Positions 26,641 to 30,684 of a stretch of 64,000 bases of DNA are shown here, in pieces. The stretch comes from Litorivicinus sp. (GTDB taxonomy: Bacteria > Pseudomonadota > Gammaproteobacteria > Pseudomonadales > Litorivicinaceae), in assembly GCA_018401755.1 (NCBI GenBank), contig JAGYKJ010000007.1:434001-498000 (forward strand), in the 5' to 3' direction. Both the position numbers and the translations under genes were made by a program. The stretch's first letter is position 1, and every line of letters begins with the position of its first letter. A model generated the notes under the pieces. The model searched no databases, had not been told where the DNA came from, and was given only the letters and a program-made list of their open reading frames with translations.

Positions 26641-27712
26641 GAATCACTTCTCCAATGAGGATGCTGCGCCATCCGGTAGGTTGCCAGCCGCGACCGTCTA
26701 ATACCGCGATCAGATCTCGCTTTTTGACCAGCACTTCTGGAGCAATGTGATAGTCATTAGCAATTGTACTGATCGCGTGCTGGAGCGACTCGAGTTGGGT
26801 TTTTTGACGTTTTGACAAGGGTGGGGGCGGAGTCGCACGCACCGGTGCGTCGTCACTGTCGGCGAGGAGCGCTTGGATTGCTGATCCATACCGGTCCGCT
26901 TGACGCTCAGACAATCCAGCATCCACAACGAATTGATGGCGACGCGACACGCTCTTACTTGTGGCGAGATGGAAGATCGATTGATCACTTAAAATATGCT
27001 TTCTGGGACGATCATAGCGACGCGCAGCATCTTCGCGCCAACTCACCAAGGCATAGAGACGTGCCATGCTGCGTTCAGATAATCGCCATGCATTTCCGAA
27101 TCGCGCAACTTGGGTGTCAACATCGCCCCCATCGATGTGCGCTTTTACTCGGGAAAGTACGTCTGCCATGTCCTCCGCCATCCACTGGGCACGGTCCAAT
27201 TGATTGAGTTGCGCTTTGAGGGTCTCGGCAAGTGGTTCTAAAACCCGCACATCTTCAGCTGCATAATGCAGTTGCGAGGGGCTCAGAGGCCGTTGTGTCC
27301 AATCCGAGCGAGTCTCCCCTTTATCGAGGGTGACGCCCAGTTGCTGCTCGACCAATGCTTGTAGGCTTAGGCTGGGTTTTGGCGTCAACAGACTCGCTGC
27401 AATTTGTGTGTCAAAGACACGGCCGGGTAATGCGCCGGTTAAACGATACAGCACTTCATAATCTTCAGCTGCCGCATGAAAGATACACTCAGGTTGCTCA
27501 GCCAGCCAGCGTGCGAGTCGACCCCACTCAAGCCTTGCCAGTGGGTCAATCAACCAGGTTTTGGCGCCAACACCGACTTGGATCAACCCGGGTTTTGGAT
27601 AAAAGGTTGAGACCCGAACAAATTCAGTATCAAGCGCAGCAGTGGGTGCATCCCAAAGTGCATCTAAACAGTCGTCGAGCTGTTGTTGTTGAATGACGAG
27701 CGTCGAAGTCAA
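26627..27712 (-). CDS. rnd: Ribonuclease D
   Basis: A 3'-5' exoribonuclease of 361 residues (E. coli 375) for trimming tRNA and other small RNA ends. DEDDy residues are visible: Asp and Glu in ALDTEFVR near residue 23, Asp in HAAAEDYEVLY near 80, and the final Tyr and Asp in HYAAEDVRVLE near 150. HRDC-type helical repeats follow. The ATG overlaps the recR stop by 4 bp, so it belongs to the dnaX-ybaB-recR-rnd-ycgL run. Confidence 0.95.
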   Translation of the reverse strand: MTSTLVIQQQQLDDCLDALWDAPTAALDTEFVRVSTFYPKPGLIQVGVGAKTWLIDPLARLEWGRLARWLAEQPECIFHAAAEDYEVLYRLTGALPGRVFDTQIAASLLTPKPSLSLQALVEQQLGVTLDKGETRSDWTQRPLSPSQLHYAAEDVRVLEPLAETLKAQLNQLDRAQWMAEDMADVLSRVKAHIDGGDVDTQVARFGNAWRLSERSMARLYALVSWREDAARRYDRPRKHILSDQSIFHLATSKSVSRRHQFVVDAGLSERQADRYGSAIQALLADSDDAPVRATPPPPLSKRQKTQLESLQHAISTIANDYHIAPEVLVKKRDLIAVLDGRGWQPTGWRSILIGEVIHAFS

Positions 27713-28308
27713 CTCGGAACCTCGGTGCGACTTAATAATGCGTGGCTCAGCGTGGTCGCATCCAATTGTCCCAAGTCGCCACCAACTGGCACGCCCTGCG
27801 CAAGCCGAGTCACCCGAAGCCGGCGCCCGAGGGTGGCTTGGATCTGAAAAGTGGTTGCCTCCCCTTCCACGGTTGAGGGCAGGGCAATAATTAACTCACT
27901 GGGCTGTTCTGCCTCAATCCGTGCATACAGACTTGGCAGTCCAATGTCTTCGGGTCCTCGCCCGTCGAGTGGGCTCAGTGTGCCACGCAGGCAATGGTAC
28001 TTTCCCTGGAAGAGTCCCGATTGTTCAATCGCTTGGACGTCGGCGGGCCCACAAACGACGCACCAAATACGATGATCTCGGGTGGTATCCGCGCAGAATT
28101 GACACAGTGCGTCTTCGGTCGGTACTGCACACTGCTGGCATTCACCGATCTGAGTCATCGCTGCTTCAAGCGCAAGTGCCAGATGTAAGCCACCCGCTCG
28201 ATTTCGCTCTAAGAGGTGAAGTGCCATCCGACTCGCAGTGCGTTGGCCAACGCCGGGCAAGCATCGTAAAGCACGCTCCAGCTGATCAAGGAGTGGCGAT
28301 AAACTCAT
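27709..28308 (-). CDS. recR: Recombination mediator RecR
   Basis: 199 residues (E. coli 201). N-terminal helix-hairpin-helix LPGVGQRTASRMALHLL near residue 18, a four-cysteine zinc site in CQQCA...LCQFC near 57-71, a Walker-B-like Toprim domain (VCGPADVQAIEQSG; ALPSTVEGEATT), and a C-terminal GVPVGGDL motif. RecR works with RecO and RecF to load RecA on gaps. It overlaps ybaB and rnd by 4 bp each, in the conserved dnaX-ybaB-recR order. Confidence 0.97.
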   Translation of the reverse strand: MSLSPLLDQLERALRCLPGVGQRTASRMALHLLERNRAGGLHLALALEAAMTQIGECQQCAVPTEDALCQFCADTTRDHRIWCVVCGPADVQAIEQSGLFQGKYHCLRGTLSPLDGRGPEDIGLPSLYARIEAEQPSELIIALPSTVEGEATTFQIQATLGRRLRVTRLAQGVPVGGDLGQLDATTLSHALLSRTEVPS

Positions 28309-28634
28309 GAAAACGGAAACTTAAAACCAGGCGGTAATTGTAACCCTGCGGTCATTTGCGACAGTTGATCCCCTTTCAGTTGCTCAAGCTTCTTCATCGC
28401 ATCATTGATTGCCGCAGCGACCAATTCGCCAACGATCTCTGGCGTATCTGCTAAGACTGGCGGATGAATGGACACGCCGAGACAATCGCCCTTCCCGTTC
28501 AACCGTACCGAAACCAATCCAGCTCCGGACTCGCCACAGATCTCCTGATCGAGCAACGCCTCTTGGGCGCGCTTCATGTCTTCTTGCATTTTTTGGGCTT
28601 GCTTCATCAGCTCACCCCATGGGCCATCAAACAT
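28305..28634 (-). CDS. ybaB: YbaB/EbfC nucleoid-associated protein
   Basis: 109 residues. The family pattern is the helical N-terminus ELMKQAQKMQEDMKRAQEAL, a beta-sheet core GAGLVSVRLNGKGDCLGVSI, and the C-terminal helix AAINDAMKKLEQLKGDQ. YbaB dimers bind DNA and organise the nucleoid. The ATG shares a base with the stop of the tau C-terminal frame (TAATG), so it is coupled to dnaX. Confidence 0.95.
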   Translation of the reverse strand: MFDGPWGELMKQAQKMQEDMKRAQEALLDQEICGESGAGLVSVRLNGKGDCLGVSIHPPVLADTPEIVGELVAAAINDAMKKLEQLKGDQLSQMTAGLQLPPGFKFPFS

Positions 28635-29041
28635 TAAATCTCCTTGCTAACGGGCTGGATACTGTCTTGATCGATTGCCGCATTAAAACGCGCAACCAGC
28701 GTCTTGACCACTGGATCTGCAACAAAGGCTGATTTTGCTAAAGCAAGGCGCTCAGCATGTAACCGATCACGCCGTTGTAACGGAGTCTCCGGGGTCATGT
28801 CTGATGCCGTGATTTCAACCTGAAGCGCGAGCTGGGTGACTTGCCGCAGGCTGGTTTCAATACGGTGCCGGTGCACTTCAGTGATTAATCGAAGAATGTC
28901 CGGTGTTGTGACAAATGACCAGCACAGATTTTGCTGCGTCAGTAACGCCATTTGCGAAGCAAAGCCCCCTGTCATCCCGTGCAGATTCAGTTGATCAAAC
29001 ACCTCGGACCAATTACTCGGTGTGACCTCAATCTTTGGGGG
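28634..29041 (-). CDS. dnaX: C-terminal (tau-specific) domain of DnaX, in the -1 frame
   Basis: 136 codons in the -1 frame relative to the upstream dnaX reading frame. The translation begins PPKIEVTPSNWSEVFDQLNL and contains the tau domain V pattern: NWSEVFDQL, LLTQQNLCWSF, ITEVHRHRIE, and ETPLQRRDRLHAERLA followed by DPVVKTLVARF. In E. coli this domain binds the DNA polymerase III alpha subunit. Reading upstream in this frame meets TGA just before the C run, so it cannot be translated from dnaX without a -1 shift or an extra base. A GTG at 29002 could start a separate protein, but the domain's first Trp-containing segment would be lost. The sequence is well conserved, so it is probably functional and expressed in some way. 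Confidence 0.8.
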   Translation of the reverse strand, partial: PPKIEVTPSNWSEVFDQLNLHGMTGGFASQMALLTQQNLCWSFVTTPDILRLITEVHRHRIETSLRQVTQLALQVEITASDMTPETPLQRRDRLHAERLALAKSAFVADPVVKTLVARFNAAIDQDSIQPVSKEI

Positions 29042-30546
29042 AACTGCTGATCATTCGAGGAGTCATCACGGTCGACATCGTCGCCAACTTCAACACCAAA
29101 GACGTCCTGAGTTGCCGCAACGTCAGCAAGCTGCGATGCCTTAGCTGTCGAGTCGCCGTCATTGTTTGGGTCAATTAATTGATCCAATAGCGGCTCGGTC
29201 TCTGGGATGTATTGCGGCTCAGGCTCAGGGTCGCTGACCCAGGGGGGATCCTCAGTGTTGGGATGCTCACCCAACGGTCTCTGTTGAGCCAGTGACGACT
29301 GCGCCTTGGTTCGACTCTCGATGCTGCTGTCTGCACCCGAAGAACCGGTGTCGAGAGGCCCAATTGATGACTGTTGAGTATCTATCGGCCGGTGATGCTC
29401 TTCATTGGAGGAGTCTTCGGGCGTACTTGGCTTAGCGGCGCTGGGGAACTCCCGGGCACGCGCTGGCCGGAAGGCGAGCATGCGAAGCAAGACCATCTCG
29501 AAGCCAGTCCGTGGATCGGGTGTGAGTGGTAAATCCCGATACCCCTGCAATGCAAATTGATAGGCCAATTGCACGAACTCAGGATGCATCGCGTCAGCCA
29601 AGGCAGTAATGTGGTCCCGAGATGTCGGGGGTAAATGGGCGATGGCGGCCGGGTCCACGTGTGCGATTGCAACGTGATGCAAGCAGCTTTGCACCGCACT
29701 GAGACAACTTAGCCAATCCGGTGACATCTGTGCCAACGCATCAACATGACGCAGGGTTGCAGGGGCATCCCCACGGGCAATATGGCCGAGCAAGGCGGGA
29801 ATGTCGGATTGCCCCTGCTGTCCAAGCATCACAATCACATCGTTTGAACGCACTTCGCCTTCACCAAATGCGATCGCTTGGTCGAGAAGTGTCAATGCAT
29901 CACGGACCGATCCTCGCCCCGCTTTGGCGAGATGCCATAAGGCATCCTCGTCATACGCAATCTGTTCCCCGTGCAACACAGTCGCAAGGTGCGAGGCCAC
30001 TAAGTCAGGAGCAAGGTCCCGTAAATGAAACTGCAGGCAACGCGACAGAACGGTCGGTAGTACTTTTTGAGGGTCAGTCGTCGCCAGTAGAAAAATCACG
30101 TGGGCTGGTGGCTCCTCCAGCGTCTTAAGCAAGGCATTAAATGAATGCGGACTCAGCATATGCACTTCGTCAATCAGATACACCTTGTAGCGCCCCTGAT
30201 TGGGGGCGTAACTGACGTTCTCGAGTAATTCGCGGGTGTCATCAACCTTTGTGCGACTTGCTGCATCGACTTCAATGAGATCAACGAATCGTCCAGCATC
30301 AATGGCAGCGCAGGCGTGACAGGTTCCGCAGGGGGTGGCTGTCACTCCGGTTTCGCAGTTGAGACAACGCGCCAGAATTCGGGCGACTGTCGTTTTACCA
30401 ACGCCCCGGGTACCAGTAAACAAGTACGCGTGATGGAGCCGATCAGTGTCGAGCGCGTGAGACAGGGCTTTGCGGACGTGATCCTGTCCAATCAAGTCGG
30501 AAAACCGAGTGGGTCGCCACTTTCGTGCCAGAACCTGTTGACTCAT
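28987..30546 (-). CDS. dnaX: DNA polymerase III subunit tau/gamma, main reading frame
   Basis: Clamp-loader ATPase. The 0-frame product is 519 residues from ATG 30546 (GAGGA 5 nt upstream). Walker A is GTRGVGKT at residues 45-52, zinc ligands are Cys64, 73, 76 and 79 at the same numbers as E. coli, the Walker B is DEVHML, and sensor LLATTDPQ and SRCLQF follow. After about residue 395 comes a long Ser/Asp/Glu/Pro linker. The frame then passes the C run at 29037-29041 and ends at 28987 with an unrelated 18-residue tail. The tau domain V continues in the -1 frame (28634-29041), so full-length tau of about 637 residues needs a frame change. An earlier ATG at 30672 lies inside the SRP RNA and is rejected. 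The SRP RNA is immediately upstream. Confidence 0.92.
   Translation of the reverse strand: MSQQVLARKWRPTRFSDLIGQDHVRKALSHALDTDRLHHAYLFTGTRGVGKTTVARILARCLNCETGVTATPCGTCHACAAIDAGRFVDLIEVDAASRTKVDDTRELLENVSYAPNQGRYKVYLIDEVHMLSPHSFNALLKTLEEPPAHVIFLLATTDPQKVLPTVLSRCLQFHLRDLAPDLVASHLATVLHGEQIAYDEDALWHLAKAGRGSVRDALTLLDQAIAFGEGEVRSNDVIVMLGQQGQSDIPALLGHIARGDAPATLRHVDALAQMSPDWLSCLSAVQSCLHHVAIAHVDPAAIAHLPPTSRDHITALADAMHPEFVQLAYQFALQGYRDLPLTPDPRTGFEMVLLRMLAFRPARAREFPSAAKPSTPEDSSNEEHHRPIDTQQSSIGPLDTGSSGADSSIESRTKAQSSLAQQRPLGEHPNTEDPPWVSDPEPEPQYIPETEPLLDQLIDPNNDGDSTAKASQLADVAATQDVFGVEVGDDVDRDDSSNDQQFPQRLRSHRVIGPRCLIN
29028..29041 (-). promoter_or_regulatory. dnaX slippery run CCCCCAAAG with in-phase TGA for a gamma-type end
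   Basis: The run of five C (29037-29041) followed by AAAG contains the heptamer C_CCA_AAG in the tau frame. A -1 slip there would read CCC AAA GAT TGA, ending at 29028-29030, like the short gamma subunit of E. coli made at A_AAA_AAG GAG TGA. A small stem, ACCGA with TTGGT around GTAA, lies about 11 nt downstream. As given, the upstream frame is not the tau frame, so one more C would restore the classic layout. Confidence 0.55.
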
Positions 30547-30560
30547 AAGTTCCTCATTGG

Positions 30561-30684
30561 CAATGGAAGCAACCCCTGCCAGCCACACCCCGGCACACCC
30601 GATTGTCGCTGCCGCTGCTCCCTTCCAGGCCTGACGGGGTTCACGACGATCGTGTTGCGAGGGGACCGACAAGGGTCACCATTG
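30561..30684 (-). ncRNA. ffs: Signal recognition particle 4.5S RNA
   Basis: The apical domain is unmistakable: GTCAGGCCTGGAAGGGAGCA with the GGAA tetraloop, then GTGTGCCGGGGTGTGGCTGG, matching bacterial small SRP RNA, especially the pseudomonad form. The closing helix pairs CAATGG (30679-30684) with CCATTG (30561-30566), which sets approximate ends; true ends may be a few bases inside. It lies 15 bp upstream of the dnaX start on the same strand, as in pseudomonads, so RNA and dnaX mRNA may share a transcript. Confidence 0.92.

Follow-up and report, generated by a model that had tools for sequence, protein, structure and literature searches.

A dnaX gene recorded in two frames in a Litorivicinus assembly is very probably an ordinary tau gene affected by a base-call or assembly indel

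The dnaX gene of E. coli undergoes a −1 frameshift at A_AAA_AAG that makes gamma. Sites of this type combine an efficient heptamer in the read frame and a near −1 stop with a downstream stem-loop, an upstream Shine-Dalgarno-like stimulator and conservation among relatives. A different layout, a dnaX of two ORFs with tau made by recoding, was published in 2013. The available text of that study describes 17 such genes detected with GeneTack, in which the tau C-terminus is encoded −1 relative to the upstream ORF; the genes form a cluster, and 12 of them carry slippage-prone poly-A runs of 7–10 A (PMC3711429). The accessible part of a review restates tau by recoding in two-ORF dnaX (PMC5009743). 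According to the GeneTack study, a singleton whose broken frame is confirmed by homology is expected to be a sequencing error (PMC3711429), and another report describes indels, with truncated ORFs as their result, as a fault to which long-read sequencing is prone (PMC10688829). As for the slip sites, the available text of PMC4066793 places C_CC.A_AA.G among the strongest E. coli heptamers (54% with the IS3 pseudoknot) and attributes slight slippage to C_CC.C tetramers with the same pseudoknot.

The window examined here is a stretch of 64,000 nucleotides from a Litorivicinus sp. genome (referred to below as G000) that comprises 2,194,005 bases in 7 contigs and is 99% complete. Its dnaX lies on the minus strand, directly downstream of a small SRP RNA gene (30574..30671, minus strand; RF00169, 70.8 bits) and upstream of two further minus-strand ORFs, at 28305..28634 and 27709..28308, which we take to be YbaB-like and RecR-like, respectively. 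The 0 frame begins with the ATG at 30546, passes through TTC CCC CAA AGA and stops at 28987. This ORF (28987..30546, 519 aa) encodes the N-terminal DnaX domains (dnaX_nterm, 414 bits) and the linker, and ends in a short non-homologous tail. The tau domain V is found in the −1 frame (28634..29050, minus strand), which is open for 138 codons and terminates at 28636–28634. The closest relative used for alignment, G007 (locus L003), has a stop-to-stop DnaX ORF whose residues 548–678 match this piece with 92 of 131 residues identical (70%). Both pieces are matched by the NCBIfam family PRK07994 (DNA polymerase III subunit gamma/tau) in profile order, at profile positions 1–432 and 529–654. Between them they supply the N-terminal clamp-loader ATPase and the gammaproteobacterial tau C-terminus, and they are one DnaX recorded in two frames. 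A search of the whole G000 genome revealed no second dnaX copy above the family cut-off; a pattern search of viral contigs for a further copy of the tau piece gave five matches, none a relative, and no same-species copy was found in genome contigs among the best 80 of 584 relatives, where the top identity was 64%. In domains, length (~637 aa over both frames; ~636 in G007) and genomic neighborhood the gene is like an ordinary gammaproteobacterial dnaX, from which it differs in being recorded in two frames.

The place of the break is narrowly bounded. A TGA at 29051..29053 (minus strand) closes the tau frame upstream, and the alignment to L003 begins at the codon at 29032; therefore, the break lies within 29050–29033 (29033..29050 on the minus strand), an interval of 18 bases. 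Exactly five C are recorded at 29037..29041 (minus strand), the sole run of at least four bases inside this interval. A C or G run of at least five occurs in 1.2% of random 18-base stretches (20000 draws from the sampled genome). The first-pass annotation had read the 0 frame as running through TTC CCC CAA AGA into a non-homologous tail ending at 28987, domain V as intact in a −1 frame blocked upstream by a TGA, and C_CCA_AAG as in phase in the tau frame; frame reading and the alignment to L003 bear out all three readings. It offered two explanations, namely that one base had been lost by mutation or sequencing error, or that in this organism ribosomes slip −1 on CCC to yield tau and slip a second time to yield gamma.

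Under programmed recoding, tau would come from ribosomes that slip −1 on the C run, and the short form either from the end of the 0 frame or from a second slip on C_CCA_AAG. The precedent of split dnaX genes with tau in the −1 frame, a layout shared by the present locus, speaks in its favor (available text of PMC3711429), as does the strength in E. coli of C_CC.A_AA.G with a strong stimulator and the slight slippage of C_CC.C, both reported with the IS3 pseudoknot (excerpt of PMC4066793). Given its strength in E. coli, the C_CCA_AAG motif raises a fair suspicion of recoding. The tau frame also resembles E. coli dnaX in having a −1 stop close to an X_XXY_YYZ heptamer. However, the sequence of the heptamer differs from that in E. 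coli, and it is out of phase in the recorded 0 frame, so the read frame offers no efficient heptamer with a near −1 stop. When 85, 61 and 46 bases downstream were folded and compared with shuffles, no structure stood out from chance (z 1.15, 0.58 and −0.13), and inspection by eye of the 25 bases before the C run showed no GGAG or AGGA that could act as a Shine-Dalgarno-like stimulator. The junction carries only five C, in one genome, whereas the available text of PMC3711429 describes 12 of 17 split dnaX genes with poly-A and the genes as a cluster. The gamma-like end that the first-pass annotation had seen at C_CCA_AAG does not hold: the heptamer falls at about codon 504 of ~637, just ahead of domain V, and the short product of a slip there would lose domain V alone, an extent that is not gamma-like. 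Heptamers beside a −1 stop are common in G000. An X_XXY_YYZ heptamer with a −1 stop at most 3 codons away occurs in 106 of 605 ORFs of at least 200 aa; for V_VVA_AAG heptamers the count is 4 of 32. The window dnaX itself contains a further X_XXY_YYZ heptamer, C_CCA_AAC. The first-pass annotation regarded the double slip as a new way of setting the tau/gamma ratio; tau by recoding is itself not new, being described in the available texts of PMC3711429 and PMC5009743.

Comparison with related genomes bears on the same question. The dnaX search covered 57 genomes (G000 and 56 relatives), 53 of which gave a match, and loci were read in 29 relatives: 16 of 21 congeners (L003–L018) and 13 genomes of the same order (L019–L031). 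Two congener loci fall short of the dnaX end, L009 at a contig end and L010 at a stretch of N, and were left out. The 14 congener genes that remain, each of which can be read to its end, all encode tau in a single open frame, and none of them contains A_AAA_AAG, C_CCA_AAG or G_GGA_AAG past about residue 300. A_AAA_AAA is present in five of the 14, at residue 309 in two and at residues 578–580 in three. Among the 13 order relatives, by comparison, nine have A_AAA_AAG at residues 383–425, eight of these with the classic layout of a −1 stop one codon past the heptamer; the window heptamer sits ~80–120 codons further downstream. The slip site is thus not conserved in the genus. Judged from these sequences, the genus seems to have lost the classic A_AAA_AAG tau/gamma signal. 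Given that nine of 13 order relatives but no readable congener (0 of 14) have the signal, tau may be the sole product in the genus, or else gamma may arise there via another route. Programmed recoding at the C run is, on the evidence of phase, folding, upstream sequence and conservation, extremely unlikely. The same very low probability is given to its specific form, in which the five C are real, tau arises by a −1 slip on CCC, the 0-frame product serves as the domain V-less form, and the genus lacks the usual gamma signal.

The frequency of frame breaks elsewhere in the assembly was estimated by searching stretches of G000 with ORFs from 1.2 Mb of a congener, G001. In a first sample of 832,746 bases, 447 queries were matched and 17 rows flagged. 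One of these was a tRNA locus (q673/q1177) and was dropped; the remaining 16 were put through frameshift-aware alignment. They included an antisense ORF (q1159/q1132), recognized by reading of the sequence and dropped from the list of G000 breaks. A larger sample of 1,232,746 bases with stricter filters yielded 22 breaks, spread over 21 of the 627 queries that matched, or 21 breaks in 20 genes without the antisense ORF. Fifteen of the 22 rows were among those aligned in detail in the first sample, and seven new rows are outside that alignment. The filters missed dnaX and the RNase E gene (rne), both of which are additional to the 21. The contig that holds the window (C6) accounts for 6 breaks in 696 kb, and the other stretches for 16 in 536 kb. 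Breaks affect ~3% of matched queries on contigs C1, C2, C4, C5 and C6 and are concentrated within the first 60 kb of C4. In-frame stops were counted in 18 rows of G000 and 47 of G001. Judged by eye, the G000 rows fall close to the ends of genes or within ORFs that are short or contain many stops, except for the rne row, which is a frame break; these counts carry little weight.

The reverse search, on G001 with the stricter filters, flagged 4 of 612 queries, so that unrelated conserved genes show an excess of frame breaks in G000 over this relative (21/627 vs 4/612; Fisher p = 0.0008). Of the reverse rows, q80 lies upstream of a start codon, q792 is a fragment of the secA that is broken in G000, and q848 is an ambiguous overlapping gene pair; none of these three is a clear break in G001, and the fourth row, q830 (109 aa), is outside that check. 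Looser filters flagged 9 of 441 on G001, and again none of the nine was a clear break: eight were stretches upstream of starts, SRP RNA, low-scoring noise or the ambiguous overlapping pair (here q791), and the ninth, q786, was a gene broken in G000. ORFs from a second congener, G009, matched G000 in 105 queries, of which 5 showed a break (6 breaks in all). With G009 itself as the control (220,000 bases, G001 ORFs) there was 1 candidate break among 119 matched queries, no significant deficit relative to G000 (p = 0.23). G009 ORFs on G001 gave 1 flagged row in 116, at the tRNA locus, and G000 ORFs on G009 gave 1 in 103, once more the ambiguous gene pair; neither proportion differs significantly from 5/105 (p = 0.10 and p = 0.21, respectively).

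Of the 16 breaks aligned in the first sample, nine lack one base (the antisense ORF included) and seven carry one base too many. Runs of at least four bases adjoin six of the nine short ones, vs 23% expected (p = 0.006), and none of the long ones. The errors are accordingly of more than one type.

Ten of the broken genes could be named through the best NCBIfam match of their intact copies in G001. They correspond to SufB, SufC, FtsY, FliP, a Rieske subunit, HisG, ClpA and prephenate dehydratase, and, with the G001 copy under the curated cut-off, to transaldolase and N-acetylmuramoyl-L-alanine amidase. The ftsY break is weaker evidence because it precedes the conserved GTPase part, which is intact. 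In addition, secA is recorded in G000 as two pieces in two frames, both matched by NCBIfam SecA, and rne (L209, G000:C4:51001-54068) likewise as two NCBIfam-matched pieces in two frames, with the break near residue 316 of the congener's protein. In the whole G000 genome, no other secA and no other sufB exceeds the family cut-off; a SecA-like ORF of 607 aa at G000:C4:464148-465860 (minus strand) scores lower, under the secA family cut-off.

In E. coli, secA, rne and tau are indispensable. It is hardly plausible that secA, sufB and dnaX are all truly split in one living cell, and since indispensable genes are broken together, most of the breaks must be faults of the recorded sequence, absent from the organism itself. 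This weighs on the possibility that a true recent indel, or a mixed population, broke dnaX in this strain, which would leave it with leaky slippage or with no full tau. The break is, after all, present in the given sequence, homopolymer runs are mutable, and breaks away from runs also occur in G000. Yet a true indel in dnaX would strike a product that is essential in E. coli, would require secA and sufB (which have no second copies) and rne to be broken in the same cell, and would have to be reconciled with a domain V that retains 70% identity in a tau frame free of stops from 29050 to its end. A true indel is therefore considered highly unlikely.

The window dnaX is thus very probably an ordinary, single-frame, tau-encoding gene that was mis-recorded in the assembly through a base-call or assembly indel. 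The bases of the C run that immediately precedes domain V were very probably miscounted, and a miscounted run would split the frame on paper; the faulty base call would in all likelihood be in the C run itself. The split would then be one among many frame breaks in the G000 assembly. Of the two explanations offered in the first-pass annotation, the loss of a base is strongly supported as an assembly or base-call error by breaks across the genome, indispensable genes included; the double slip found no support, with its site in none of 14 congeners, no structure beyond chance and no Shine-Dalgarno-like sequence.

Measuring the frame-break rate of the assembly thus removes the ground for a tempting claim of recoding, and conclusions drawn from ORFs of G000 need checking. 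If recoding were true, the locus would be a C-run variant of the tau-by-recoding layout already known for two-ORF dnaX.
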